Virus record (IMG/VR): IMGVR_UViG_3300044678_000478
Span: 1-28,285 of that record
Length of the DNA stretch: 28,285 bases
Strand: one strand, 5' to 3'
Origin: a virus
Part shown: positions 1,606 through 27,990 of the stretch, in pieces
Layout of the letters: every line of letters starts with the position of its first letter
Position numbering within the stretch: the first letter of the stretch is position 1
The notes under the pieces: generated by a model
Seen by the model: the letters and a program-made list of their open reading frames with translations, nothing else
What the model was told of the DNA's origin: nothing
Databases searched by the model: none
Position numbers and translations under genes: made by a program

Positions 1606-2634
1606 ATGTTTGGCGCTAGCCCGATATCATCCGCCCCGATTTGCGGAACAGCAGAAAGTTCTGTATTCGTTTTTGTTAACGAAACCGCAACGGCGCAGGA
1701 TACTGTCCGGGCTATCGCCACATTCGTCAGCAAGGTCGATGAGTCTGTCACGGCTCAAGACCTTGTTGCTTCCGTTATCGCATTTGGCTCGTCGGTTGCT
1801 GAGTCAGCCACGGGCAATGACACGGTCTCCGCGCTACAAGACTTCGCGGTTGCCGTAAACGAATCAGCCTCCGGGCTGGACGCTGTATCAGCACAACAAG
1901 ACTTCGCGTCTTCAGTGTCTGAGTCTGCGGTCGCTAATGACACGACTGCGGCCAGCGTCTTCTTTACTTCGTTCATTAACGAAACGGCCACGGCCCAAGA
2001 CACGGTCACATCGACCTTTAACGTCAATAATGCGGTGTCCGAATCGGCCACGATCCAAGATACCGTCATCTCTAATCCGGACTTCGGGGTATCGGTCTCT
2101 GAAAATGCCACGGTCAACGACGACACCGTCACGGCCCTGATTGACTTTGCCGTCAAGGTAGACGAGGCGGCGGTAGGTTCCGACACCACAAGTGCCAGCC
2201 AAGACTTTGACTCCCGTATCAACGAGACGGCGACCGGGCAGGACACCACCCGATCCCTCATTGGCTTTATTAAATACGTGGCTGAAACGGCGACCGCCAG
2301 CGATCAGGTCGATGCCCTTGCCATATTCCAGTCCAAGGTTGCGGAGATGGTGGCTGCGGCGGAACAGGCTGCGGCCCTCGTGGACTTTGTCAGCAGCGTC
2401 GATGAGTCGGCTACCGCCATTGCGTCGGACTTCGCGGCAGGGCAGGACTTTGACGTTGACATCACCGAAACGGCCACGGTCAGCGACCAGATGGCCGGGT
2501 CCTACCTCTGGAACCCGGTTGATGATAATCAGACCGCTAACTGGCAGAATGTGGACGATAGCCAGAGTGGGCCTTGGACACCCGTAAACGACAACCAAAC
2601 AACGACTTGGACCGACATCCCAACGGTTTTTTAG
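1606..2634 (+). CDS. Tandem 20-residue repeat protein, probable tail fibre/spike
   Basis: The 342-residue protein is built almost wholly of about fourteen consecutive repeats of roughly 20 residues, with consensus 'ESATAQDTVSALQDFAVAVN'. The repeats begin near residue 26, and the copies differ in sequence. They are followed by three 11-residue units ('VDDNQTANWQN', 'VDDSQSGPWTP', 'VNDNQTTTWTD') and 'IPTVF'. Regular short repeats of this kind form extended beta-solenoid or fibrous shafts in phage appendages. The start follows an AGGA at 1598-1601. The next gene is an S74 fibre, and its Shine-Dalgarno overlaps this stop codon. I infer a fibre shaft or decoration protein; no enzymatic motif is visible. 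Confidence 0.7.
   Translation: MFGASPISSAPICGTAESSVFVFVNETATAQDTVRAIATFVSKVDESVTAQDLVASVIAFGSSVAESATGNDTVSALQDFAVAVNESASGLDAVSAQQDFASSVSESAVANDTTAASVFFTSFINETATAQDTVTSTFNVNNAVSESATIQDTVISNPDFGVSVSENATVNDDTVTALIDFAVKVDEAAVGSDTTSASQDFDSRINETATGQDTTRSLIGFIKYVAETATASDQVDALAIFQSKVAEMVAAAEQAAALVDFVSSVDESATAIASDFAAGQDFDVDITETATVSDQMAGSYLWNPVDDNQTANWQNVDDSQSGPWTPVNDNQTTTWTDIPTVF
1681..2517 (+). repeat. In-frame 60-nt tandem repeat array (about 14 units)
   Basis: The Glu codon opening each unit recurs at 1681, 1741, 1801, 1861, 1921, 1981, 2041 and 2101. After one extra codon it continues at 2164, 2224, 2284, 2344 and 2404, and after another at 2467. The period is therefore exactly 60 nt with two single-codon insertions. 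Protein spacing is conserved, but nucleotide sequences have diverged between units. Confidence 0.9.
2518..2616 (+). repeat. Three 33-nt tandem units coding for Trp-containing 11-residue repeats
   Basis: Units at 2518-2550, 2551-2583 and 2584-2616 encode V-[DN]-D-[NS]-Q-[ST]-x-x-W-x-x. They form the C-terminal cap after the 20-residue repeats. Evenly spaced Trp, Asp and Gln suggest a small beta structure or binding surface; the role is unknown. Confidence 0.8.
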
Positions 2635-2643
2635 GAGCCTAAA

Positions 2644-3804
2644 ATGGCAAGTACATATTCAACCAACCTTGCGCTTGAATTGATCGGTACCGGCGATCAG
2701 GCAGGCTCTTGGGGTAACACTACCAACACCAACCTTGGGACTTTGGTCGAACAGGCCATTTCCGGTTATGTGACTCAGGCGGTCTCCAACGACCCGGCAA
2801 GTCCTACCACCCTCACCATCCCAAATGGTGCCAGCGGCGTGGCACGGAACATGTATCTGGAGTTCACCGGAACCCTGAGCGCGGCCCGTGATGTCATCGT
2901 CCCTTCCAACCGGAAACTCTATTTCGTCTTCAACAACACCACAGGCGGCTTTGCCGTTACGGTCAAGGTGTCGGGTCAGACCGGCGTATCGGTCCCCAGC
3001 GGCCAGAAACTGATTGTCGTATCGAACGGTACGGACATCGTTGAGGCGACGAACTTCATCAGTACCACAGGTGGTAACTTGACCATCACGGGTACCCTGA
3101 CCCTTTCCGCCCTGACGGCTTCAACGGCACTTGCTTTAAACGCTTCAAAGGCGGTGGTAAGCGTTACCAACACTGGTTCTGGCAACAACGTCCTTGCGAC
3201 AGACCCCACCCTGACCCTCACCAATGCCACTAACCTACCCATTGTCGGCGGCACCACGGGAACCTTATCTGTAGCACGAGGCGGTACGGGAGCCACGGAC
3301 GCGGGTACGGCGCGGTCTAATCTGTCGGTGCCTAGCACTACTGGTTCCGGGGCCAGTGGCACATGGACGATTAACATCACCGGTAACGCCGCCACAGCGA
3401 CCAGCGCGACTTCTGCTTCCACGGCAACCACGGCCAGCAATTCCAATGCCTTGGGCGGTGTATCAGCGGCAGGCTACGCCCTGCTGTCAGGCGCGACTTT
3501 CAGCGGCAACATCAACGCCCCGGCCTTCTTCTACACCTCAGACATGCGGGTGAAGAACAACATCCAAGACATCACGGATGCCCTTGCCAAGGTGAATGCC
3601 ATGCGGGGTGTGTCCTTCGACTGGGCCAACGGCATGGGTAGCGCGGTGGGTTTGATCGCTCAGGAAGTCCAAGCGGTCGTTCCGCAGGCAGTATCTAGCC
3701 AGCCCGATGGTCTACTGAACGTGGCCTACGGGAACCTTGTGGGTGTCCTCATCGAAGCCATCAAGGAACTCTCTGCCAAGGTTGAAGCACTGGAGGCCAA
3801 GTAA
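2644..3804 (+). CDS. Tail fibre with C-terminal peptidase S74 chaperone domain
   Basis: This 386-residue fibre starts after an AGGAG at 2635-2639. The N-terminal ~130 residues ('STNLALELIGTGDQAGSWGN', then a beta-rich domain) match the head of many environmental phage fibres. A low-complexity Thr/Ala/Gly shaft follows, including 'GGTGATDAGTARSNL' and 'GNAATATSATSASTATTA'. The C-terminal ~100 residues form an S74 intramolecular chaperone: 'FFYTSDMRVKNNI' with the self-cleavage Ser at 299, then 'GVSFDWA', 'GLIAQEVQAVVPQAV', and a coiled-coil end. In this family the domain trimerises the fibre and then cleaves itself off just before the Ser. The stop overlaps the next start (TAATG). Host-receptor binding is the expected role. 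Confidence 0.88.
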   Translation: MASTYSTNLALELIGTGDQAGSWGNTTNTNLGTLVEQAISGYVTQAVSNDPASPTTLTIPNGASGVARNMYLEFTGTLSAARDVIVPSNRKLYFVFNNTTGGFAVTVKVSGQTGVSVPSGQKLIVVSNGTDIVEATNFISTTGGNLTITGTLTLSALTASTALALNASKAVVSVTNTGSGNNVLATDPTLTLTNATNLPIVGGTTGTLSVARGGTGATDAGTARSNLSVPSTTGSGASGTWTINITGNAATATSATSASTATTASNSNALGGVSAAGYALLSGATFSGNINAPAFFYTSDMRVKNNIQDITDALAKVNAMRGVSFDWANGMGSAVGLIAQEVQAVVPQAVSSQPDGLLNVAYGNLVGVLIEAIKELSAKVEALEAK

Positions 3805-4349
3805 TGGAACAGCCCAAAGACGTACAGAAGGTTCCGCCAGAGACGGTCAAGTATGCGGCAGAGGAGTCGCTGAAGGATCGTGTTGCACGGATTGAAGACA
3901 TGCTTGTGCGCGGCGGCAGCACCGATAACGGCATCCTGCCCTACAACGGCCACAGCCGGTCGCCCGGAACCTTCTACGGCGGAACTGAGAACCCGGCCAT
4001 TAACGCTGCTCAGTACCGTTTAAACTACGATGGAAAGTTGTACGCCACCCAGATGCATGCCAAGGCGTTCTTCTACACCTCCGATATTGCGGACAAGGAA
4101 GAAGTGAAGCCTTTGACCAATGCACTGGAGAAGGTGTCACAGATTCAGGGTGTCAGTTTCCGTTGGAAAGACGGCGGATCTGATGCCGGTGTAATCGCTC
4201 AGCAAGTACAGGAACTGATCCCTGAAGCCGTCATGATGGAGTACGACAGCGGCAAGTTGTCGGTCAACGCGGCGGCATTGATCGGTTATCTGGTTGCAGC
4301 GGTTCGGGAACTGAAGGCTGAAGTTGAGGCCCTGAAGGGTGGAAAGTAA
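3804..4349 (+). CDS. Short second S74-domain fibre/adaptor protein
   Basis: The ATG at 3804 overlaps the previous TAA by one base. The product is 181 residues. Its N-terminal half is polar ('MEQPKDVQKVPPETVKYA', a short helix, then a Gly/Asn-rich stretch), and its C-terminal half is an S74-type domain: 'FFYTSDIADKEEV' with Ser 93, 'QGVSFRWKDGG', 'GVIAQQVQELIPEAV', and a terminal coiled coil 'VRELKAEVEALKGGK'. It matches the preceding fibre domain almost block for block, but the usual SDxRxK becomes 'SDIADKEE'. There is hardly any shaft or receptor region. It may be a diverged duplicate, a chaperone acting in trans, or a short tip. Whether it cleaves itself is unknown. Confidence 0.8.
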   Translation: MEQPKDVQKVPPETVKYAAEESLKDRVARIEDMLVRGGSTDNGILPYNGHSRSPGTFYGGTENPAINAAQYRLNYDGKLYATQMHAKAFFYTSDIADKEEVKPLTNALEKVSQIQGVSFRWKDGGSDAGVIAQQVQELIPEAVMMEYDSGKLSVNAAALIGYLVAAVRELKAEVEALKGGK

Positions 4350-13313: not shown

Positions 13314-14792
13314 ATGAGCGGTGGTGGCGGTGGTGGTGGCGGTGGCCCACAACAAGTTACCTCAACGGTAACCCAGAGCAGTCTTCCTCCCTACGTTCAA
13401 CCGTACTTTGAGCAGGTACTGCAACGCGGTCTCTTTGAGAGTGCGCGTCCGTATCAGCCGTACAGCGGTCAGCGTATGGCGCAGTTTGCGCCTGAAGAAA
13501 CCTATGTCCAGCGCAACATCATGGGATTGCAGCGTCCCGAACAGTTGGGCATGGCGAGTGATATCGCGGCCCGTGTCGGTTACGCAGGTATGCCCTCCGG
13601 CATGGGGATCACTGGACAGTTCCAGCCCGGTGCCATTACCCCGACCTATCAAGCAACTCCTTTCAGCACGGGTTACACGGCAGGATCGTTTGCTCCGGGC
13701 TTTGAAGCGCGAGAGTTCCAGAATCAATACCGCGCCGGAACCTTCGCCCCCGGCTATCAGGCAGGGACCGTAGGACCCGGCTTTGAGGCAGGCTCCATTG
13801 CGGCCCCCGGAACTGTCTCAACCTACATGTCTCCCTACACCCAGAATGTGGTGGAGAGACAGAAACAAGCCGCTGTCGAAGACTACCGCCGTAGTCTCCC
13901 CGGTATCGGTGCGTCCGCTGTTCAGGCTGGTGCCAAAGGCGGTACCCGCGAAGCATTGATTCAGGCAGAGGCTGCTCGTGGTTTACAGGACAGACTCGCC
14001 GGTATCGAAGCCACAGGCGCTGAGAAGGCGTTTGAGTCTGCACAGAGAGCCTTTGAGGCTGATCGTGCTGCGCGTCTTCAGCAGGCTCAGTTTGGCCTAG
14101 GCGCGTTCCAAGCACAGGAAGCCGCTCGTCAGGAAGCCGCCCGTATGGGTCTTTCTGCACAGCAGCAGCAGGAAGCAGCCCGTCAGGCCGAAGCAGAGAT
14201 GGGCCTTCGTGCGTTCCAAGCGACCGGAGAGGAGCGTCGGTTCGCGACAAGCACCGGCCTTCAGGCGCAGCAGGCTGGAGAGGCAGCGCGTCAGGAAGCG
14301 GCTCGTCTTGGACTTTCCGCTCAGGAACAAAGCGATGCAGCCCGTCGCGCCGAAGAGCAGTTCCGGATGCAGTCTCAGCAGTTCAATATCGAACAGCAGA
14401 GACAACGTGCATTGCTGGGACTGGAAGGACTCGCGGCAGATCGTGCAGGGATGCAGCAAAGACTCAGTGCCGCAGAAATGCTGGCGGGTCTTGGCGGCAG
14501 ACAGCAGGAGTTGGATCTTCAGAGACTGGGTGCCATGGGCGGTGTTGGCGCAGAGCGTCGTGCGCTTATGCAGCGTGGTCTGGATATCGGCTACGAAGAC
14601 TTCCTGCGTCAACAGGCTTACGGTCGTGAGCAGTTGGGTTACCTCAGCAATCTCTTGCAGGGTATCCCGATTCAACCGGGCAGCACGGTCTCTACCTTTG
14701 GTAGAGTTCCGTCAACCGGCGAACAACTTTTGGGCGCAGGCTTAGGATCGCTGGGCTTGTACCAAGCCTTGGGTGGCAGAGGGCGAGGTTAA
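13314..14792 (+). CDS. Internal virion protein, repeat N-half and Ala/Gln coiled-coil C-half
   Basis: Start ATG 13314 follows AGGAGAG at 13302-13308. The 492-residue product begins with poly-Gly, then 'SLPPYVQPYFEQVLQRGL' and 'PYSGQRMAQFAPEE'. A tandem ~10-residue repeat region (residues ~112-165) follows ('YTAGSFAPGFEA', 'YRAGTFAPGYQAGTVGPGF'). Next is a conserved block 'TVSTYMSPYTQNVVERQKQ', 'GIGASAVQAGAKGGTREALI', then a long Ala/Gln/Arg/Glu coiled coil ('QEAARMGLSAQQQQEAARQ'), and a Gly/Leu-rich end. The 'YMSPY...V...QK......GA.A.......GG.R.AL...E..R' core is familiar from environmental phage structural proteins. It likely lies inside the capsid or along the ejection path. Confidence 0.7.
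   Translation: MSGGGGGGGGGPQQVTSTVTQSSLPPYVQPYFEQVLQRGLFESARPYQPYSGQRMAQFAPEETYVQRNIMGLQRPEQLGMASDIAARVGYAGMPSGMGITGQFQPGAITPTYQATPFSTGYTAGSFAPGFEAREFQNQYRAGTFAPGYQAGTVGPGFEAGSIAAPGTVSTYMSPYTQNVVERQKQAAVEDYRRSLPGIGASAVQAGAKGGTREALIQAEAARGLQDRLAGIEATGAEKAFESAQRAFEADRAARLQQAQFGLGAFQAQEAARQEAARMGLSAQQQQEAARQAEAEMGLRAFQATGEERRFATSTGLQAQQAGEAARQEAARLGLSAQEQSDAARRAEEQFRMQSQQFNIEQQRQRALLGLEGLAADRAGMQQRLSAAEMLAGLGGRQQELDLQRLGAMGGVGAERRALMQRGLDIGYEDFLRQQAYGREQLGYLSNLLQGIPIQPGSTVSTFGRVPSTGEQLLGAGLGSLGLYQALGGRGRG
13640..13803 (+). repeat. Degenerate tandem repeat coding for AGxFxPGYxA units
   Basis: The stretch encodes consecutive 8-12 residue units of the form [YF]-x-A-[GR]-x-[FV]-x-P-G, for example 'YTAGSFAPG', 'YRAGTFAPG', 'YQAGTVGPG' and 'FEAGSIAAPG'. 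Nucleotide copies are diverged. Unit borders are approximate. Confidence 0.6.
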
Positions 14793-17075: not shown

Positions 17076-20000
17076 ATGGCATTCGATATTGCTGGTGCCA
17101 GACAGGCGGGATACTCTGATGAGGAAATTGCTCGACATATTTCTGAGCAACAAAACTTTGATTATTCCGGCGCAGTAAACGCTGGATATTCTGCTTCAGA
17201 AATACTGAGTCATCTTTCTGGTCCAACGCCTGAGGATCAGTCTGCCTTTCGTCAGGTTGCCGATGTCCCGCTGCAATTCGCGACGGGCGTATCGCAAGGC
17301 GTTCGTTTCATTTCGGATGCATTCGGCGCTGATAATGCGGTATCGCAGAATCTTCGCGGCGTAGAGGATTACCTCAGTAGTTTGCTCAGCGCACAGGCTA
17401 AGCAAGACAAGGAAGAAGTCGCACGGATCTTCCAAGACGCTCAGGACAAAGGACTGGGCGAACAACTTCTCGCAGGTCTTCGGGCGGTTTCTGTCTCTCC
17501 CGTTGACTTCCTTGCACAGGGATTAGGCACTGCCGTTCCCACCATCGCAGGTGGCTTGGCTGGTGCAGCCCTTAAAGGCGGTACGTTAGCGGCTCGTGCG
17601 GCGACGGCGGCTGCTGTCGGAACCGGTGTCGGTACGGTGGGTGGTGCGGGTATTGTCAAAAGCACCATCTATGACGAGGTTAAACGCGAACTTGAAGCAC
17701 AGGGTGTTCCGCCAGACGTTGCTGAGGAACGCGCTCAACTGGCTCAGGAATACGGCGGAGAAAACCTTGACCAGATCCTGCAAGGCGCTGGGCTTGGCGC
17801 ACTTGCTGCCGGAACTGGTTTGGAAAAAGTTCTCGCCAGTCGCATCCTCAAGAATGTCGCGGCTAAGAATGCAGTCGAAAGTGGTGCGCTGAAGTCTGCC
17901 TTGTTTGCAGGCGCGAAAGAATCTGCACCAGAATTCATTCAGGCTGCACAGGAACAGATCGCCGGTAACGTTGCCCTTCAGCGTGAAGGCTTTGAAGATA
18001 TTCCAACCTTGCGTGGTGTGGCCTCTGCCGCAGCCTTGGAAGGTGCCATTGGGTTTGGACTTGGCGCAGGTATAGATGTCGTTTTACCTGCCCAGCAACA
18101 GGCTGAATACGATGCCGCTCGTGCCAGCATCACGAACGAAGTAGATCGCGAAAGAGAGGCAGCACTCCGCGCTGAGGAGCAGAAAAGGGCGCAGGAGTTT
18201 GTCGCTGCACTTAACGCAGAAAATCGCCGTAGATTGGAAGGCCAGTCTAGGCAGGTTGATCTAGACGCTGAAGCGGCTAATGCCCGTGCTGCTGCCGGAA
18301 CCATTGCCCCTCCGACACAGGAGGAAGTGGATCAATTGGCTGCGCCGATGCGTGGACCAGATGTTTCGGAATTCTTTTCTTTAGAGGGAAGTCCAAGAAA
18401 GTTCAGAAACGATATTCAGTTTGGCATTGCCTATGGACAGAAGATCGCCCGTACCTTGGGTGATTACTTCCCGAACTTTGGTCAGTTCTCTGTCCGTCAG
18501 GGCGAGACGGTTCGTGATGAAGCCGGTAACGCCCAGCCTACGTTTGCCATCATCGATACCGAAGGCAAGCAATACGGTCAGCCGCTTCAAACCTTTGAAC
18601 AGGCTAACGCCACTGCTTTTAGTTTAAACAAAGAGGTCATCAACCAGAACGTTCGGGGAGCGATCCTCAATTCTCTGGAGACTTCTGATCAGGCATACGA
18701 TCCTGATACGACCCAGCGTCTGTTCAGTTACGGATACCGTACGCTGAACCCCGATGCCAATACGTTCTCCACTGTTGCTATCAACGAAGCGGCAAAGACC
18801 GTAGGCCCTGAGTACGCTGAAGCACTGAGTTGGAGACAGGTTGAGGCTTTGCCTGAGGCCAAGGACAAAAGAGGCCGGGTCATTGGCTACCAGTTTTCTC
18901 CTGAGGGTCAGCAACCACGCATCATCAAGGGTCTCACCAAGTCTCAGGAAATAAACAAAGCCCGTTCTCAGGAAGGAAAGCCTGAGAGCAATGTGTTCTC
19001 TTTGCAGGAAACGAAGTCTGCACTGGGTAAAAGTTTCCCGGCCATCACCAAGGATGTGCCGATTGATCCTGCCATTGGTAAGCAGGGTGCGATCAATCAG
19101 ATTCGGGATCTGATTCGTTCCAAGAACATCACCTCTGACATTGCCTCACCTGAGGTCAATGCTCTTGCCAAAAGCCTGACCGGAAAAGATTCCGTGCAGG
19201 ACATGGACTACGGTGACATCCGTCTTTTCTACAAGAAACTGGCACCGCTTCCTAGGTTTGAAAGAAAAACTAAACTGCCGGTCTTTGAGTTCAAGCCGTA
19301 CAACCGGGAGAACTTCGTCCGCGCTTCTAAGTTTATTCAGGAAGCCAATGCACAAGGCAGAAAGCCTGACCGTAACGAGATCATCGAAGCGGTGGGTCTT
19401 GCCAAGGACGACCCGAAGATCGATGAGAAGATCTCTGCGCTAGAAGCAGACCTTGCCAAGCAAGGCGTTAAGAACGCGCCTAAGCCGACACTGGCGCTGC
19501 CTGCCCCTCCGGGTGGGAACATTGACCTAGAGTCGCTCAGGAAGTCACTGCGTTCAAATCTGAAAGGCTTCGGGCTACAGGACATTGGAGTTTCCCTTGA
19601 GCGCAACCTGATCGGACCGACCGGTGAGATTGCCCCGGAAGGGACAGAAGCCATGTACATCCCTGCACTGCGTCAGGTGTTCTTGGCCGTGGATCGTATC
19701 GACCCAGATGGATCACTAACTCCTGAGCAACGTTTAAATGCATTGAACGAGGTGATGGGTCACGAGATCATCCATGCCACCCGTTTGATGGACCTGTGGA
19801 AACAGGACGAATGGTCAAGCCTTGAGAGGGCAGTCGCTAAAACCAAGAAGCCGGGGACCAACCAGACCTATCTGGAGATTGCTCAGCGATCCTATGCCGA
19901 CCAGAACCCTGTGGTTCGCATGGAGGAGGCCGTGGCGGACATGTTCCGCGACTACTCAGCCAAGCGCCTCAAGGTCGCAGGAAAGCCCCAGAACCTTTTA

Positions 20001-23000
20001 GAGCGCCTTGCTCAGTTCTTCCAAAGACTCCGATCCTCTCTGGCCGGAACCGGTTTCCAGACCTACGGCGATGTTCTTAATCGTCTCCAAGCCGGTGAGA
20101 TTGGTGCGCGTGAGCGGGGACAGATCCGTACCCTCCGTGCCATCGAAGAGCAGGTCGCTGGACAGGGCCGTCTCCCAGAGAGATTACTTGGAACAGTTCC
20201 GCCCACCCCAAGGGTCGTTGCACCTCAGGCCCCTGTTGCTCCTGTCACTCAGGCACCTCAAACCGCAGCCCCTGCTGCTAGACCGGGGGACTTCCCTCCT
20301 GAACTACTTGAAGGCGCAGCGATTCGTGAGGCGCGTAAACCGCCGGTACTTGAGAAGGCCGGACGTTTCCCGTACCTCCAGAACAATGACGGGTCTGTCG
20401 TGGTTCAGGGAGACGCTGAGCAGATTCGTGAGTCCATCCCTCAAGCCATCCGTGGCAGACAGACTCAAGATGGATTGCTCTTTGGCGCACTAGATGCACC
20501 TCGTGTTCTTGCCGCACTGCGCGGTGAGAAGTTGACCTACGGTAGAGCCGGTCAGGTGTTGGACAAGTTGCCGATCAAAGACGGCAAGTATGTCGGCGCA
20601 CCTGAGAAGTACAACACGCCATCTAAGATCCCGACCCTTCGCAGAAAACTTCGTAACCTTGCTGTTGAAGGCGAGTACGGAAGATTTTGGTACGAGGATA
20701 GCGGCAGAGCCATCATCGACTATGTCGGTGGTGATTTAAACGAAGCCAGAAAACTGCTGGCGTTGATGTCGATTTACTCGCCTCAGGCGAAGGTCGATGC
20801 CAACTCCACGTTCGCGATCCGTGCGTGGGCGCAATACAAAGCCGGTCAGCCGATCAACGTTAAGACTCGCCATCAAGACGCTAAGGCCAATCAGGCCATG
20901 CAGGATATCGATGCGTTCTGGTCTGGCGAGAAGACCGGTAACTTCGTCAATAACCTTTTGCGTGTGGTAGATCCGACCCTTCCGCAGGGCGCGACTATCG
21001 ACATGTGGATGATGAGAGCGGCTGAGTACGCGAGTGATGCTCCGACCAAAACGCAGTATGCGTTTATGGAGAATGAGATCAACCGTATCGCCCGTGACCT
21101 TGGATGGGAACCGCAGCAGGTTCAGGCTGCGATCTGGGTTGCAATGAAGGCCCGGATGGAAAATGCCGATGTCAAAAAGAAGACAGAGGACTCATCCGAA
21201 AAGAAAGGTTGGATTCGCTTTGAGCGTGACGAGAAAGGCACTAAGCGCCGGATCATCGTGGATGAGCAGAAGCATCGTGATAACTGGCTCAAGTACACGA
21301 TGGAACATGTCCCTAACAAGGACGATAAGTTCGCGGCAGGGTTCCACTTTGGTGACGGACTCAATCGCCATGTCGGTCAGGTTTCTTTTGAAGCGCGTCC
21401 GGGCAGAAGCACTGGCGTATTGCCGGGTATTCACTCTGCACCTTACGAACAGCAACTAGAGTTCCAGCAGGCCATTGATCGTGCCTTTTACGATCCGACC
21501 ACTGGCGCTGATTTGATTGCCAGTTACCTTGGCCTGTTGACCGATAGCGATATCGTCGCGCCGGGTGTGTGGCAGGGTGAAGTCTCGCCTAGTTCCCAGC
21601 GCAACATGGTCATGGCTCCTGCTAAGGGAACCGCTGGCCGTGTCGATCCTGATCAAGCAAAACTTTTAAACGTTTATGCATCGCTCAAGGGATTGCTGGC
21701 CCGTCAGGAAGGGGTGGGCTGGCACAAGCCTTACTTCGCTTCCACGATGCGCGATGCGAACGGATTAGATTTAAACGTTGGAAGACCGTTGTCTTCTGAA
21801 GAGACGCTCAATCTCAGTAATGCGATTGGCGACTGGATGGTTGCAAACAATAAAGGCGAAGACTGGAATAATTCTTTTGCTTTAATCAGCAGCCCCAACG
21901 GAATCCGACTTGTAAACTTTGGTGTAATTGACAACGCCACATTACAACGTGATATCATTCCTGTCGCAGAAAATGTTCTGCCAGATTTTGAATATAAACT
22001 TTTCGCATCTGACGGCGACATGCCGTCGAACGACTGGACGGAGAACACAAATGGGGAAGGCTACATACAAAGGATTCGTGGCGAAGGACGATCCGATGTT
22101 TTGGACTGGGCCGCAAATGTTCTCGCGCCCAGAATACAGCAGATCTTCGAAGACTTCAGCAGCCGATACGGATGGGGCGAACCCGGATCAATCCGCATCC
22201 CGACCGGCGTTGCAGGCACAGCCGCAAGACCAGAACTCCGCGAATCTTTCCGCCCTCAAGCGCAGTTAGATCAAGCCGTAGCCAAGGCGGAGGCTGATGT
22301 TGCAGCCACGCCTTCTATGGCGGTTCCGCTTTACAACCCCGGCGCATCCGCCGAAGCGTTGTTCGTTGCACAGAATCCTGATCAGGGTCTGAAGTTAACG
22401 GCTGAGGATAAGATCCGTTACTCGCGTAAGAACGAACCGCAGTATACGGCTGGCTTTGACAAGGTCCTTGATAAGTTAACTCAGGACCCACCTCAGCAGA
22501 CCCCGGCACAGACCATCATCAATACGATGAAGATGCCTAAGTTCCGGGACACGATTGACAAGATCCGTCAACAAACGATTAACAATTACTCGCGACTTGA
22601 ATTCTATAACAAGGCTCATCCGTCACTGATGCACAACACGGCGGCTGTCAGTTCTCTGGCAGCGGCAGAGTTTGCAGATCGTTCCAAGGCGATCTTTGCT
22701 TCAGCGGTGACTCGTGGTGTGCCGGTGTATCGGGACGGTGGATTCACCGTTGATCCGTTTGTTCACAACGGTCGCGAGTACAAGAACGGATTGATCGATG
22801 TACTGGCCCCTCTCTACAACAACGAATACGGAAGTTTGGAGAGACTTGCCCAAGCCTACGCAATTGCCAGACGCGGACAGCGTTTAACCCAAGAAGGCAA
22901 GGTGGTTCCGGGTGACCCTGCGGACCTGCCGCGCATCGAAGCGGAAGTCGCAAGGTTCGTGAATCCGAACACGGGCGATCCAATCATCAAGGAATGGTAC

Positions 23001-25067
23001 GAAGTATGGCAGGCGTATAACGCCAACACGATCAAGTTCCTGCGCGATACTGGAATGATCGATGATGCAGGCGCACAGTTGTGGCTGAATCAGGCGGACT
23101 ACTTCCCGTTCTATCGCACTGACAGAACCGGTAAAGACATCTCTCATCCGAAGGTATTCGGCGGGTTGACTTCTGCCACGGCGCTCAAGGCGCTGAAGGG
23201 TGGCGAGGAAGCGATCAACGTCCCGCTCATGGAAGCCATCCTGACCAATCTGGATGCCGCCATTGCGATGGGCATGAAGAACGTAGCGCAGCAGAGGATC
23301 GTGCGCGACATGATCACTATCGGTTTGGGCCGCATGGCTCAGCCGGGTGAGAACATCGAAGGCCGACCCGCCGCCACGTTCAAGATTGCCGGTAAGAAAT
23401 ACACCGCTTTCATCGATGACCCGTTGATCTTTGAATCCATGCAGGCTGTCCCTGAAGTCAACATGGATGGGTTGCTTGGCAATCTATTCCGTACTCCTGC
23501 CGTGGTACTGCGCGAACTGATCACTCGTGAACCGGGATACATGATCGCGAACATGCTCCGCGATACGGCATCTGCCGCACTGACTACTGGTGCAAACATC
23601 ATCCCGGTGGTCGATACCGTGCGGAACTTCTCTGACGGTCTTGAGAACCTTGCGCGGTTTGGTGTGGTGGGTGGATACGACTTCGCTCGTGACCCGTCAG
23701 ATGTGGTCAAGTTCGTGGCCGAAGAAGCCCGTCAGCGTGGTCATGAGTTCCCAACACGAGAGACCACTAAGTGGGATCAGGTTGCAAACTCCAAGATCTT
23801 GAAGCCGCTGACCCGCGCATGGGACATGCTTGGCAAGATCTCTGACAAGGCGGAAGCCTCTACCCGTAACGCAGTATACGAAGATACCCTTGCGCGTACC
23901 GGTGACTGGGTGCAAGCGGCATACGATGCGCTGTCGGTCATCAACTACGGACGGCGTGGCCGGAACCCTCAGTTGCGTTTACTCACCGCCACTGTGCCGT
24001 TTTTGAATGCCCGTATTCAGGGTCTGGATAAACTCTACCAAGCAGCCACTGGTCGCACAGGTGTATTCCCTGATCGCAAGAAGAACGTCCTGAGATTCGT
24101 GACTCGCGCAGGTCTCATGGTCGGATTGACTGGCCTCTACTACGCCATGATTTCTGACGATGAAATCTACGACAACGAGAACGCAGAGGTTAAGGACAAC
24201 TACTACCTGATCCCGATCAAGAAGGCAGACCTTGCCAATCGGGAGCCGGGTTTTGCGTTCAAGATTCCTATTCCCTTTGAAGTGGGCGTGTTGTTCAAGA
24301 CCATTCCTGAGCGAATCCTTGATGCAACCTACGGAAAAACAACCTCTAAAGATGTGAGGGATTCTTTAGTACGCGCAACGACTAGCACGTTCGCTATTAA
24401 TCCGATTCCTCAGACCTTGCTGCCAATAGCAGAAGTTGCCTTCAACCGCGACACTTTTACTGGTAGGCCAATTGTTCCGCAGTACATGATGGACCGGGAT
24501 GCGATTGCTCAGTCAAGATTCGGCACCAACGAACTTGCCCGTATCGTAGGCGAGGCGACCGGCATATCGCCGCTCAAGTTAGACCACTTGATGAATGGCT
24601 ATCTGGGTAGCCTTGGAACCTACACGCTCGACACTATCGACAACGTCATGCGTGACAACGACCGCGCTTATCCAGAGCGTAAGTGGTTTGAGTATCCGTT
24701 CGTTCGCCGCTTCTTTACGACCGCCATGAAGCCCGGATTGCAGGACCAGTTCTATGAACTGGATGCCCGTGTAAACGGTGTTGTGCAGAGCATGAACGCA
24801 CTTCGCAAGGAAGGCCGCGTCGATGAGTTGCAGGCGTACATCATGGAGAACCAGAACATCCTCGCGCTCAAGAGCGGGGTCAACGTTCTGGATAAGGCCG
24901 TGACCAACTACCGAAACCAGAAGAACGCGATCCTCCGCATGGACATTGACCCTGAGGAGAAGCGTAGGATCATCGACGAATTGGATCGTGGCATGGCTCT
25001 GCAACTCAGGGTTATCCCGGAACTCAGAAGGATGGCGTTTAGTGAGTCGCAGCAAACACGAGAGTGA
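17076..25067 (+). CDS. Giant polyvalent virion protein with metallopeptidase and LPD38-like domains (2663 aa)
   Basis: Two N-terminal repeats (residues 3-22 and 28-47, 'FDxxGAxxAGYSxxEIxxHL') precede hydrophobic Ala/Gly stretches (~150-195, ~314-337) and a charged helix. Around 840-960 lies a zincin-like domain: 'GHEIIHATR' (HEIIH, 896-900) with 'EEAVADMF' about 50 residues on as likely third ligand. A Pro/Ala linker follows (~1041-1070). Residues ~1110-1750 hold a conserved-looking domain with 'GRFWYEDSGRAIIDYVGG' (~1202). The last ~650 residues, with 'TVPFLNARIQGLDKLY' (2307 on) and a hydrophobic segment (~2340-2360), resemble LPD38 of phage polyvalent proteins. Length and position suggest a protein packed in the capsid and ejected into the host. 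It has a weak Shine-Dalgarno, with TTTAAAC directly before ATG. Virion location is inferred. Confidence 0.75.
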   Translation: MAFDIAGARQAGYSDEEIARHISEQQNFDYSGAVNAGYSASEILSHLSGPTPEDQSAFRQVADVPLQFATGVSQGVRFISDAFGADNAVSQNLRGVEDYLSSLLSAQAKQDKEEVARIFQDAQDKGLGEQLLAGLRAVSVSPVDFLAQGLGTAVPTIAGGLAGAALKGGTLAARAATAAAVGTGVGTVGGAGIVKSTIYDEVKRELEAQGVPPDVAEERAQLAQEYGGENLDQILQGAGLGALAAGTGLEKVLASRILKNVAAKNAVESGALKSALFAGAKESAPEFIQAAQEQIAGNVALQREGFEDIPTLRGVASAAALEGAIGFGLGAGIDVVLPAQQQAEYDAARASITNEVDREREAALRAEEQKRAQEFVAALNAENRRRLEGQSRQVDLDAEAANARAAAGTIAPPTQEEVDQLAAPMRGPDVSEFFSLEGSPRKFRNDIQFGIAYGQKIARTLGDYFPNFGQFSVRQGETVRDEAGNAQPTFAIIDTEGKQYGQPLQTFEQANATAFSLNKEVINQNVRGAILNSLETSDQAYDPDTTQRLFSYGYRTLNPDANTFSTVAINEAAKTVGPEYAEALSWRQVEALPEAKDKRGRVIGYQFSPEGQQPRIIKGLTKSQEINKARSQEGKPESNVFSLQETKSALGKSFPAITKDVPIDPAIGKQGAINQIRDLIRSKNITSDIASPEVNALAKSLTGKDSVQDMDYGDIRLFYKKLAPLPRFERKTKLPVFEFKPYNRENFVRASKFIQEANAQGRKPDRNEIIEAVGLAKDDPKIDEKISALEADLAKQGVKNAPKPTLALPAPPGGNIDLESLRKSLRSNLKGFGLQDIGVSLERNLIGPTGEIAPEGTEAMYIPALRQVFLAVDRIDPDGSLTPEQRLNALNEVMGHEIIHATRLMDLWKQDEWSSLERAVAKTKKPGTNQTYLEIAQRSYADQNPVVRMEEAVADMFRDYSAKRLKVAGKPQNLLERLAQFFQRLRSSLAGTGFQTYGDVLNRLQAGEIGARERGQIRTLRAIEEQVAGQGRLPERLLGTVPPTPRVVAPQAPVAPVTQAPQTAAPAARPGDFPPELLEGAAIREARKPPVLEKAGRFPYLQNNDGSVVVQGDAEQIRESIPQAIRGRQTQDGLLFGALDAPRVLAALRGEKLTYGRAGQVLDKLPIKDGKYVGAPEKYNTPSKIPTLRRKLRNLAVEGEYGRFWYEDSGRAIIDYVGGDLNEARKLLALMSIYSPQAKVDANSTFAIRAWAQYKAGQPINVKTRHQDAKANQAMQDIDAFWSGEKTGNFVNNLLRVVDPTLPQGATIDMWMMRAAEYASDAPTKTQYAFMENEINRIARDLGWEPQQVQAAIWVAMKARMENADVKKKTEDSSEKKGWIRFERDEKGTKRRIIVDEQKHRDNWLKYTMEHVPNKDDKFAAGFHFGDGLNRHVGQVSFEARPGRSTGVLPGIHSAPYEQQLEFQQAIDRAFYDPTTGADLIASYLGLLTDSDIVAPGVWQGEVSPSSQRNMVMAPAKGTAGRVDPDQAKLLNVYASLKGLLARQEGVGWHKPYFASTMRDANGLDLNVGRPLSSEETLNLSNAIGDWMVANNKGEDWNNSFALISSPNGIRLVNFGVIDNATLQRDIIPVAENVLPDFEYKLFASDGDMPSNDWTENTNGEGYIQRIRGEGRSDVLDWAANVLAPRIQQIFEDFSSRYGWGEPGSIRIPTGVAGTAARPELRESFRPQAQLDQAVAKAEADVAATPSMAVPLYNPGASAEALFVAQNPDQGLKLTAEDKIRYSRKNEPQYTAGFDKVLDKLTQDPPQQTPAQTIINTMKMPKFRDTIDKIRQQTINNYSRLEFYNKAHPSLMHNTAAVSSLAAAEFADRSKAIFASAVTRGVPVYRDGGFTVDPFVHNGREYKNGLIDVLAPLYNNEYGSLERLAQAYAIARRGQRLTQEGKVVPGDPADLPRIEAEVARFVNPNTGDPIIKEWYEVWQAYNANTIKFLRDTGMIDDAGAQLWLNQADYFPFYRTDRTGKDISHPKVFGGLTSATALKALKGGEEAINVPLMEAILTNLDAAIAMGMKNVAQQRIVRDMITIGLGRMAQPGENIEGRPAATFKIAGKKYTAFIDDPLIFESMQAVPEVNMDGLLGNLFRTPAVVLRELITREPGYMIANMLRDTASAALTTGANIIPVVDTVRNFSDGLENLARFGVVGGYDFARDPSDVVKFVAEEARQRGHEFPTRETTKWDQVANSKILKPLTRAWDMLGKISDKAEASTRNAVYEDTLARTGDWVQAAYDALSVINYGRRGRNPQLRLLTATVPFLNARIQGLDKLYQAATGRTGVFPDRKKNVLRFVTRAGLMVGLTGLYYAMISDDEIYDNENAEVKDNYYLIPIKKADLANREPGFAFKIPIPFEVGVLFKTIPERILDATYGKTTSKDVRDSLVRATTSTFAINPIPQTLLPIAEVAFNRDTFTGRPIVPQYMMDRDAIAQSRFGTNELARIVGEATGISPLKLDHLMNGYLGSLGTYTLDTIDNVMRDNDRAYPERKWFEYPFVRRFFTTAMKPGLQDQFYELDARVNGVVQSMNALRKEGRVDELQAYIMENQNILALKSGVNVLDKAVTNYRNQKNAILRMDIDPEEKRRIIDELDRGMALQLRVIPELRRMAFSESQQTRE

Positions 25068-25491
25068 TTACCTAGGACGGGTCAAGTCACTTGACTGCGT
25101 CCTCTGTAGCCTCCTAGGACAGGCTCAGGAGGGCGTAACAGAGGCTCACCATATCCGCACAGGGCATGGGCTAGGGGATCGCGCCAGTGACTTCCTGACC
25201 GTCGCGCTGTGTGTGGAATGTCACCGGGGTACCCATGGGTTCCACGGGACCAAGGCGCTGATGAGGATCGCCAAGTTATCTGAACTGGATCTACTGGCTG
25301 AGACTATCCGCCAGATGGACGAAAAAGGAGGGGAGTCAAAACTGACTCCCCTCAAGGGTATTACACCAACTGACAGCAGACAGGAGAACGCTGTCGCGCC
25401 GGAAGGTATCAGACCAGATCAGTCCATTCAACCTGATGTTCCGCGCCGAAGGAGTAGACGAGTTCAATCAAGTCGGACATCTCCTGCTTAG
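25042..25491 (+). CDS. HNH/Ref-like nuclease
   Basis: A GTG at 25042 with AGAAGGA nine bases upstream gives a 149-residue protein overlapping the giant gene by 26 nt; in-frame starts further upstream (24946) lie deep in that gene and are less likely. Motifs are CxxC (19, 22), 'EAHHIRTG' (His 36-37), 'SDFLTVALCVECHRGTH' (Cys 57, 60; His 61, 65). This is the Zn-binding HNH layout of Ref (RecA-dependent nuclease)/DUF968 and NinG-like phage recombination proteins. It would cut DNA at recombination or packaging intermediates. The C-terminal ~50 residues are low-complexity and overlap ninB on the other strand. They also contain the leftward terminator hairpin. Confidence 0.75.
   Translation: MSRSKHESDYLGRVKSLDCVLCSLLGQAQEGVTEAHHIRTGHGLGDRASDFLTVALCVECHRGTHGFHGTKALMRIAKLSELDLLAETIRQMDEKGGESKLTPLKGITPTDSRQENAVAPEGIRPDQSIQPDVPRRRSRRVQSSRTSPA
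25321..25353 (-). terminator. Rho-independent terminator for the leftward operon
   Basis: On the - strand an 11-bp perfect stem GAGGGGAGTCA / TGACTCCCCTC (25353-25343 and 25338-25328) with loop GTTT is followed by CTTTTTC. It starts 56 nt after the ninB stop. On the + strand no T-run follows, so it should act leftward only. It lies within the 3' part of the opposite-strand HNH gene. Confidence 0.82.
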
Positions 25492-26468: not shown

Positions 26469-26691
26469 GGCCACACTCCTTCAATGTTTCTTGCCTGACA
26501 AGGAACATCAACTTAGCGATCAGCATTTGCTCAGTGCGGTTCTCTGGTGGAGTGGAATCAAACTTGTCGGCCATGCCTTTGACAATGTCCCAGTCCACGA
26601 ACTCCAGAGCGCCACTCTCATCGATCTTGCACCAGATCTTCTCTTCAGTCTTAGGGACCTCAAGAAATGAAACATCATCATCGTTACTCAT
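26455..26691 (-). CDS. Small acidic protein, unknown function (78 aa)
   Basis: The start 'MSNDDDVSFLEVPKTEEKIW' at 26691 overlaps the glycosyltransferase stop by 8 nt. The protein has an acidic N-terminus, 'CKIDESGALEFVDWDIVKGM', then a basic helix 'RTEQMLIAKLMFLVRQETL' and a short tail. No motif or family is recognised. Its codon use matches the neighbouring leftward genes. Confidence 0.5.
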   Translation of the reverse strand: MSNDDDVSFLEVPKTEEKIWCKIDESGALEFVDWDIVKGMADKFDSTPPENRTEQMLIAKLMFLVRQETLKECGRGTD

Positions 26692-27364
26692 GGGATATGT
26701 GCCTCGCCTCTTTCATCCATTCGTCTCCGTACTCCACATGCATGTAGTCCCTGAACCAAGGACCGCCACGGGTGAAGTGAACACCGATTGGGTTGGGACA
26801 ATCTTCTTTGGTGTGCCAACCTTCCAAGTAGTTATAGGCAATCGGCAGTTCACCGATCACATCATTTGTTAGCCACTGGAACCTGTGCAGATAGAGACCG
26901 GTCGCGGTATTGACGGTGTCCAAGGTCAGATTCTTTTTGACCTGTTCATGGCCGCAGTTGATCAGCATGAAACTGGACCAGTTCTTGCGCGGGTACTGGG
27001 TCTGCTGAGCGCCATCCATCTTGATTCGCTCAGGTGGATTGTAGTTGTGCTTGACCACATAGACTGCCTTCGCTCCGTCCATGTAGTCCTGTATCCCTGC
27101 AATGTCACCACGGAACAGGAAGTCGCAGTCACAGAACAATGCCCAGCCCTTGTAGTCCATGAGATACGGCACGAGGAAGCGTGTAAACGTGAACTCAGTG
27201 GATGAGAGCGGGTCATGCTCCCTCCAGTACAAATTCCGTTCACGCATGTCGATCTGCTTGATAGGCCAGATATCTAACGGGATGGAGGTGTGCTTGAAGA
27301 GCGACCGCTCACAAACCCTGAACGCGATATCTTCCCGACTGTCATACCCTACAAAGACTTTCAT
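26684..27364 (-). CDS. Glycosyltransferase (GT-A type, DxD)
   Basis: The 226-residue product opens 'MKVFVGYDSREDIAFRVCER', a nucleotide-sugar-binding beta-alpha start. It carries 'DPLSSTEFTFTRFLVPYLMD', the metal-binding 'FCDCDFLFRGD' (DxD at 79-81), 'VVKHNYNPPERIKMDG', 'YPRKNWSSFMLINCGH' and 'NPIGVHFTRGGPWF'. These blocks fit a GT8-like family seen in environmental phages and bacteria that transfers a sugar from a nucleotide donor. The acceptor is unknown. Its start overlaps the methyltransferase stop as ATGA, so sugar transfer and methylation are co-expressed and may act on one glycan. Confidence 0.78.
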   Translation of the reverse strand: MKVFVGYDSREDIAFRVCERSLFKHTSIPLDIWPIKQIDMRERNLYWREHDPLSSTEFTFTRFLVPYLMDYKGWALFCDCDFLFRGDIAGIQDYMDGAKAVYVVKHNYNPPERIKMDGAQQTQYPRKNWSSFMLINCGHEQVKKNLTLDTVNTATGLYLHRFQWLTNDVIGELPIAYNYLEGWHTKEDCPNPIGVHFTRGGPWFRDYMHVEYGDEWMKEARHISHE

Positions 27365-27990
27365 AGTTTCCTCAAGATCCAGTCATCCACTACACGACCG
27401 ATCACCCGGTACTGCAACTCGCGCATGAGAAATCTCACGGCTGCATGCTTGCCTTCCTCAGGGATCACATACCGATCCTTCTGCTCAACAATCACCACCG
27501 GATCATTGTTCTTGAAGGTATCGAATCCACCTTTGATGACATCCAGTTCGTAGCCTTCGACATCGATCTTGATGAAGTCCACATCCTGCAACTGGAAATG
27601 ATCCAACGGGAACATGGGCGTGTTGCCTGTAGCGCCACGGTCTACATGGGTCGCGCCAGTATTGTCCGGTGCGATGTCCATCTTCACGAACCCTTCCTTC
27701 TGCCCTAGCGCACAGCGATGGATGACCTGAACCTTGGGTGCATTGCGGGGAAGGATTTCTGCGAACTCAGGACACGGCTCAAAGCAGATGACGTTCTCAA
27801 ACTTCTCAGTCAAACCACGCGCCCAGAGTCCGACATGCGCTCCGATATCCACGGCTGTCCGGAACCTTTGGCAATGTTTAATCGCAGTCTGCTGGTGAAC
27901 AGGCTGGTAGTTCGGCTGTTTGACCGCATCGAAGTACTCACCAATGTGGCTTTCATTCTCAGGTAGCCACCACCCCTGCACTTCCTTCAT
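27361..27990 (-). CDS. FkbM-family methyltransferase
   Basis: The 209-residue product has SAM motif I 'AVDIGAHVGLWARG' (residues 46-59), an acidic strand end 'VICFEPCPE' (Glu 71), and the FkbM signature 'FIKIDVEGYELDVIKGG' (139-155). These define small class I O-methyltransferases of the FkbM family, which usually methylate sugar hydroxyls. The N-terminus 'GWWLPENESHIGEYFDA' is typical of phage copies, as far as I recall. Both gene ends overlap neighbours as ATGA. Placement between two glycosyltransferase-type genes points to methylated glycan synthesis. Confidence 0.85.
   Translation of the reverse strand: MKEVQGWWLPENESHIGEYFDAVKQPNYQPVHQQTAIKHCQRFRTAVDIGAHVGLWARGLTEKFENVICFEPCPEFAEILPRNAPKVQVIHRCALGQKEGFVKMDIAPDNTGATHVDRGATGNTPMFPLDHFQLQDVDFIKIDVEGYELDVIKGGFDTFKNNDPVVIVEQKDRYVIPEEGKHAAVRFLMRELQYRVIGRVVDDWILRKL

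Follow-up and report, generated by a model that had tools for sequence, protein, structure and literature searches.

What does a phage do with a single polypeptide of 2663 residues in which unlike activities, predicted from a metallopeptidase-like site, a DNA-glycosylase-like domain and the LPD38 domain, are joined? The question is raised by a gene in a virus record of 28,285 bases, a fragment, which was analysed over its whole length (the window). A close cultured phage was not found for the window at the DNA level.

The giant gene encodes a phage polyvalent protein

The gene occupies positions 17076-25067 of the plus strand. An earlier note, made from the letters alone, had described a giant uninterrupted frame of 2663 residues, and the frame indeed begins with ATG and runs through 2663 codons with zero internal stops. 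Since relatives encode full-length homologues over aa 1-1112 and 1704-2661, that is, except for a swapped slot, it is a genuine gene. Pfam assigned aa 2362-2543 (24159-24704, plus strand) to LPD38 (PF18857, E 1.3e-34); the full profile (1-189) was covered, with a score of 120.4 bits against a gathering cut-off of 27. The LPD38-like domain proposed in the earlier note was thereby confirmed, as was its description of a polyvalent phage protein. Apart from LPD38 and DUF7178 (aa 1201-1359, E 3.3e-11), Pfam found nothing in the 2663-aa protein. The protein is a phage polyvalent protein.

The giant gene is encoded among virion and late genes, as polyvalent proteins are. It is preceded, in the same orientation, by tail-fibre genes, a virion structural gene and a DNA-ejection-type gene, the last of which (13314-14792, plus strand) matched phrog_4287 'DNA ejection protein' with E 1.4e-10.

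Further features were observed in the window. Two consecutive tail-fibre-type genes (2644-4349, plus strand) each end in a chaperone-like (S74-type) segment and have a similar 'SD.R.K' start, and a protein of imperfect repeats of ~30 residues ('ESATxxDTV') is encoded at 1606-2634 (plus strand). Directly after the giant gene, an HNH-like ORF (24946-25491, plus strand), the true start of which is probably beyond 25067, shows the pattern C..C, AHHIR, C..CHRGTHG. Two genes on the minus strand (26684-27990) resemble those for a glycosyltransferase and an FkbM-type methyltransferase, and DNA homology to the sister phages runs through both.

Terminal modules and probable delivery

The N-terminal module (aa 1-500; 17076-18575, plus strand) contains a doubled 'GYS..EI..H' motif followed by a Gly/Ala-rich hydrophobic stretch. 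Residues 145-419 are similar to an N-terminal portion of the N4 virion RNA polymerase (vRNAP; phrog_2206, profile positions 228-506). The window member matched with E 1.7e-5 and 7 of 16 family members matched (best E 5.6e-6), within profile positions 228-546 of 3406; the match falls in a Gly/Ala-rich stretch, where composition can inflate scores. A single-subunit RNA polymerase domain was absent, as the match is limited to these profile positions and no Pfam polymerase family was found. The C-terminal module (aa 1870-2640; 22683-24995, plus strand) was recovered by tblastn from phages of diverse hosts; this module alone is common to 51 phage records, at 23-28% identity.

Mass spectrometry of phage JC1 virions detected the LPD38 protein gp69 through 51 unique peptides (PMC9144972). 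The N4 vRNAP is ejected, and its N-terminal domain is thought to insert in the membrane (PMC12633501). From the presence of gp69, a distant LPD38 protein, in virions and from the vRNAP-like N-terminus we infer delivery of the window protein, which is probably injected into bacteria together with the viral DNA. Homology thus supports the entry along with the DNA that the earlier note had put forward.

The resemblance of the N-terminus to an ejectosome component and the ejection-type neighbour gene, together with the mosaic nature of ejection proteins (PMC8954989), would also suit a mainly internal structural or DNA-conduit protein, in which the enzymatic domains are inactive passengers. We regard this as very unlikely, since the active-site residues of both domains described below are invariant while their surroundings diverge to about 20-30%.

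The central slot is exchanged as a unit

A scan of viral contigs yielded 52 loci, and three further scans added more. The giant proteins of the relatives form two groups. In the first (L051/L096, L097, L100, L102, L105 and others), aa 1-1112 and 1704-2663 are shared at 63-82% and the middle is unshared. In the second (about 30 loci), only aa 1093-1708 are common, at 40-79%, in otherwise different proteins; between this cassette and about 20 others, protein identity is 58-79%.

The slot segment is exchanged as a unit. Sister phages are colinear with the window from about 9.2 to 27.4 kb, except at 20180-22251 (plus strand), the swapped slot: in blastn against L051, L097, L100 and L102, homology ends at 20142-20180 and restarts at 22251. 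The otherwise unrelated giants L004, L005 and L017 match the window DNA only at 20358-22199 (plus strand), the cassette that they have in common with it at about 75-77%.

One to three ART-PolyVal hits were found in the sister slots, with a GP88 domain as well in L051 and an ASCH domain in L107. In addition, local HMM searches detected a divergent DUF7178-like stretch in most sisters; the K...D motif is kept in L001, L003, L033, L097, L100, L107 and L109, and its conservation is less clear in L101. As most sister slots hold a divergent glycosylase-like domain, what changes in the exchange is most plausibly the allele of this domain and its partner, and a reading in which the window alone has this domain and the sisters ADP-ribosyltransferases (ARTs) only was dropped.

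Two details of single slots were recorded besides. L097 contains a very divergent glycosylase-like motif (FGKKVGAYTLN...TIDVW) at about aa 1380-2060, and the GP88 domain in the L051 slot lies at about aa 1640-1885.

The cassette contains a DNA-glycosylase-like domain and a companion domain

The earlier note had treated the region ~1110-1750 as a single domain, marked by 'GRFWYEDSG', with no function that could be assigned. The region contains at least two domains instead, aa 1185-1424 and aa 1425-1710, and structure and profile evidence characterise its first half as HhH-GPD DNA-glycosylase-like. The segment GRFWYEDSGRAIIDY is located at aa 1202-1216 of the 2663-aa protein.

The first domain (aa 1185-1424; 20628-21347, plus strand) was detected by VIA, by a PDB profile search, by hhalign and, as DUF7178, by Pfam. 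In HhH-GPD glycosylases the catalytic Lys lies in the hairpin and the Asp follows 18-23 residues further on. The motifs SPQAKVDAN, GEKTGNF and ATIDMW had been read as HhH-GPD type prior to the structure search. The predicted catalytic lysine, Lys1286 in GEKTGN (20931-20933, plus strand), aligned with the HhH lysine of PRK01229-like glycosylases, and the predicted catalytic aspartate, Asp1309 in ATIDMW (21000-21002, plus strand), aligned with ILDIHILR of glycosylases. Both residues are invariant in 31 cassette members as well as in 18 very diverse members.

An AlphaFold model of the cassette, built with 31 sequences, had a mean pLDDT of 88.5 and a pTM of 0.83. The top four VIA matches of the model were 8-oxoguanine glycosylases (3knt, Z 9.6; 3n0u, 9.4; 1xqp and 1xqo, 8.3); these values are moderate and the margin narrow, as unrelated rows reach 7.9 and, by the tool's own warning, a Z below 8 may reflect generic similarity. 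The glycosylase matches comprised 165-179 residues in model residues 92-332, corresponding to about aa 1184-1424. Foldseek with the whole 624-aa cassette gave no match in the PDB under E 0.001. Searching 177,635 PDB sequences with a profile of 18 diverse DUF7178 members revealed an 8-oxoguanine glycosylase/AP lyase as the best match (E 0.02), with the Lys placed one residue off by HMMER. In hhalign, DUF7178 matched PRK01229-like glycosylases from bacterial genomes with E 2.8e-5 to 3.5e-5, Lys and Asp being aligned, against E 0.04-0.57 in six controls (a reversed profile and five other profiles). Comparison with Nth/MutY/AlkA-type glycosylases was not significant; the OGG type alone was matched. 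Taken from the model and the profiles, aa 1185-1424 very probably have the HhH-GPD glycosylase fold, and the predicted Lys/Asp site is probably active.

The second half of the cassette, the companion domain (aa 1425-1710; 21348-22205, plus strand), was modelled as two ferredoxin-like lobes with a pLDDT of about 90, and VIA returned ferredoxin-like matches. Pfam and PHROG searches with these residues gave no family, and conserved Q, E, W, H, N and R residues were noted. Matches to RND-transporter porter domains and SAM lyase (Z under 8) were set aside as generic ferredoxin-like similarity. Assignment as a 2H phosphoesterase was rejected as well: the two HxT/S motifs were not found, the first HxT position being Asn, and the match to PH0099 was weak (E 0.06-0.13).

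The similarity to glycosylases does not go below the superfamily level, Lys and Asp are 23 residues apart in the window domain but 18-20 in the stand-alone forms and in known enzymes, and the companion domain has no known family. These points would agree with a DNA-binding scaffold, or with a relative of the fold that modifies or flips DNA bases, a role put forward for thymine-hypermodification enzymes. Such a function appears unlikely, given that neither catalytic residue varies even among very diverged members and that Pfam hypermodification families were unmatched among 31 members.

DUF7178 is a phage-type family, since among 299 bacterial genomes it was found only in the one already known. 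A PADLOC search gave zero hits, and NCBIfam returned only weak unrelated matches for DUF7178 members. In a BFVD search, this fold turned up within many phage polyvalent proteins as well as in ~200-aa stand-alone proteins. One stand-alone member matches 149 phage records, and this version was named 'glycosylase' by the depositors of some mycobacteriophage and gordoniaphage genomes; relatives also occur in marine cyanophages and roseophages. Several stand-alone genes lie at genome ends: the gene is the 2nd in P12053L, the 5th, behind the terminal repeat, in ICBM1, precedes the RNA polymerase gene in S-CBP2, and lies near the right end in MK4. Genes at such positions in these phage types are likely expressed first. 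The place of the stand-alone relatives among likely early genes suggests that the domain acts at the start of infection, and carriage in the virion would benefit a domain that is required immediately on entry.

A putative zincin-like peptidase region accompanies the cargo slot

MPTase (metallopeptidase) domains were described in polyvalent proteins by Iyer et al. (2017; PMC5512222). In the window protein, a zincin-like MPTase region (aa 815-1015; 19518-20120, plus strand) belongs to a conserved family of 13. Both motifs named in the earlier note are present, HEIIH at aa 896-900 (19761-19775, plus strand) and EEAVAD at aa 950-955 (19923-19940, plus strand). H896 and H900 are putative zinc ligands, E897 the putative general base and E951 the putative third ligand; these four residues are invariant in the 13 relatives, down to about 31% identity. 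E950, which the earlier note had also considered as a ligand, is not invariant and was discarded. The 13 include a 3912-aa protein of Ruegeria phage 45A6, which bears LPD38 plus acetyltransferase, methylase and helicase domains, and the distant L094, from another lineage, in which the peptidase-like region lies ahead of DUF7178. An HExxH motif arose in 1.05% of shuffles of the 2663-aa protein; from this frequency and the invariance of the four residues, the HEIIH motif is not due to chance.

In searches for a zincin family, Pfam gave no match at E 1, a PDB profile search with the region gave zero matches, and hhalign against MPTase-PolyVal (PF18818, ArdC type) was not significant (P 0.036-0.052), HExxH and EExxA being aligned within that non-significant alignment. 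An AlphaFold model of aa 660-1100 with 11 relatives was poor (pLDDT 58.4, pTM 0.31). Judged from residue conservation, a putative zincin-like site at H896/E897/H900/E951 is likely.

Right behind the peptidase, a segment GTGFQ...G....R (aa 991-1012; invariant as GxGFQ...G...R) equals the active site in conservation, Ruegeria phage 45A6 and L094 included; it may be read either as part of the domain or as a processing signal.

HExxH was found in 33 of 37 cassette carriers and N-terminal to the cassette in 27 of these 33, a descriptive count because the sequences are related. Within 320 aa of the cassette it occurred in 13 carriers versus 0.16 expected, the sequences not being independent. The LPD38 giants of Vibrio phage 1.232.O (L232) and PTXU04 (L234) lack HExxH; the LPD38 frame therefore does not need the peptidase. 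As a separate observation, HExxH in L004, L005, L028 and L036 lies 18-38 residues after the cassette, not before it, possibly a different peptidase arrangement.

The peptidase, N-terminal to the cargo in most carriers, would probably cut the chain to free the cargo, by analogy with the proposal of Iyer et al. (2017). The earlier note had suggested that a packaged protease could mature virion proteins, open the cell envelope or cut host defence proteins. An effector or virion-maturation protease of this kind, cutting other proteins and not its own chain, is an alternative that Iyer et al. also list for polyvalent MPTases (PMC5512222) and that fits the conservation of the peptidase region whatever cargo is present. 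We consider it rather unlikely: the position between frame and cargo, N-terminal in most carriers, suits self-processing, and the two giants lacking HExxH show that the peptidase is not needed for assembly in general. Cleavage of the window protein need not occur, since the N4 vRNAP has an HExxH domain and is nevertheless packaged in uncut form (PMC5512222).

Proposed role of the cargo

Taken together, these observations may be read as an ejected polyvalent protein with a zincin-like peptidase and a swappable, DNA-acting, glycosylase-like cargo, a combination that we hold to be evenly balanced between right and wrong. Judging by homology, the vRNAP-like N-terminal and the C-terminal LPD38 modules would serve as the conserved framework by which the protein is packaged and ejected, enclosing the putative peptidase with its conserved residues and the swappable cargo slot. 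In this phage the slot holds an HhH-GPD glycosylase/AP-lyase-like domain with its Lys/Asp pair, plus the companion domain. On entry the cargo would act on DNA, excising bases and nicking the abasic sites left behind; its most probable target would be host or defence-related DNA, attacked just as infection begins.

The more specific form of this proposal is that the ejected, ready-made HhH-GPD glycosylase/AP lyase damages DNA of the host or of defence elements, or strips modified bases, in the first moments of infection, that the slot passes as one unit between unrelated phages by recombination, its content being swapped for cargo that bears ADP-ribosyltransferases, and that the adjacent zincin frees the enzyme; in its entirety it is put forward tentatively, as a possibility against which the balance leans. 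Repair of the incoming phage genome is a serious rival, in which the domain would remove, upon entry, oxidised or damaged bases acquired in the free virion. The nearest fold matches are 8-oxoguanine glycosylases, stand-alone relatives occur in light-exposed marine cyanophages and roseophages, and phage repair glycosylases such as T4 endonuclease V are known (PMC7824862). However, ADP-ribosyltransferase and GP88 domains, which are more effector-like, share the slot or replace its content, and an AP lyase nicking incoming linear DNA ahead of the completion of host repair would be risky. We consider repair rather unlikely; the pairing of the cargo slot with ADP-ribosyltransferases makes the host or its defences the likelier target.

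Comparison with known systems

Polyvalent proteins, LPD38 as well as their MPTases and ARTs were already known (PMC5512222). The window protein resembles the LPD38 group in its giant size, multidomain structure, MPTase-like site, LPD38 near the C-terminus and late or virion neighbourhood, and its sisters carry ART-PolyVal as members of that group do. Unlike the polyvalent proteins described there, it has an HhH-GPD glycosylase-like domain. The word 'glycosylase' is absent from the main text of PMC5512222 and Pfam still lists the family as DUF7178, so the glycosylase-like cargo appears to be a new element; in literature on polyvalent proteins and glycosylases, PMC7824862 mentions only T4 endonuclease V. 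The cargo suggests a new kind of phage-delivered weapon or repair tool and would extend the set of enzymes that phages may bring into cells ready-made by one of the base-excision type. Moreover, with a sharply bounded cargo slot beside a conserved peptidase, sister phages offer a direct test of the long-standing proposal that polyvalent proteins are self-processed carriers.

The N4 virion RNA polymerase gp50 (PMC12633501) is likewise a giant ejected protein with a membrane-type N-terminal domain, an enzymatic core and an HExxH-bearing domain, ejection being assigned to the window protein by homology. In contrast to gp50, the window protein has no RNA polymerase match, carries glycosylase-like cargo and has its HExxH domain before the core, not after it. 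The JC1 gp69/DarB-like proteins of Bcep22-like phages (PMC9144972) also have LPD38 near the C-terminus, and gp69 is present in virions, but gp69 (4515 aa) instead bears methylase-helicase, LPD3 and lytic-transglycosylase domains. The defence glycosylases Brig1 and Brig3 (PMC11078745, PMC13160076) are DNA glycosylases in phage-host conflict as well; they are bacterial defence enzymes described as uracil-DNA-glycosylase-related, with a different fold, and the likeness is one of context, with no homology claimed.

The 8-oxoguanine glycosylase/AP lyases of the OGG2/AGOG type (3knt, 3n0u, 1xqp, 9o00; PRK01229) share with the window domain the fold, the Lys/Asp pair and a C-terminal W motif, at 10-14% identity in structural alignment, whereas the window domain is embedded in a giant phage protein. 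The stand-alone DUF7178 (phrog_3842; Caelum gp80, MK4 gp76 'glycosylase', S-CBP42) is the same domain (hhalign E 4.7e-31). With the glycosylase-type assignment, a widespread phage family gains a testable identity with named catalytic residues. The stand-alone form is a single-domain protein of about 200 aa made after entry, whereas the copy in the window lies within a giant late protein.
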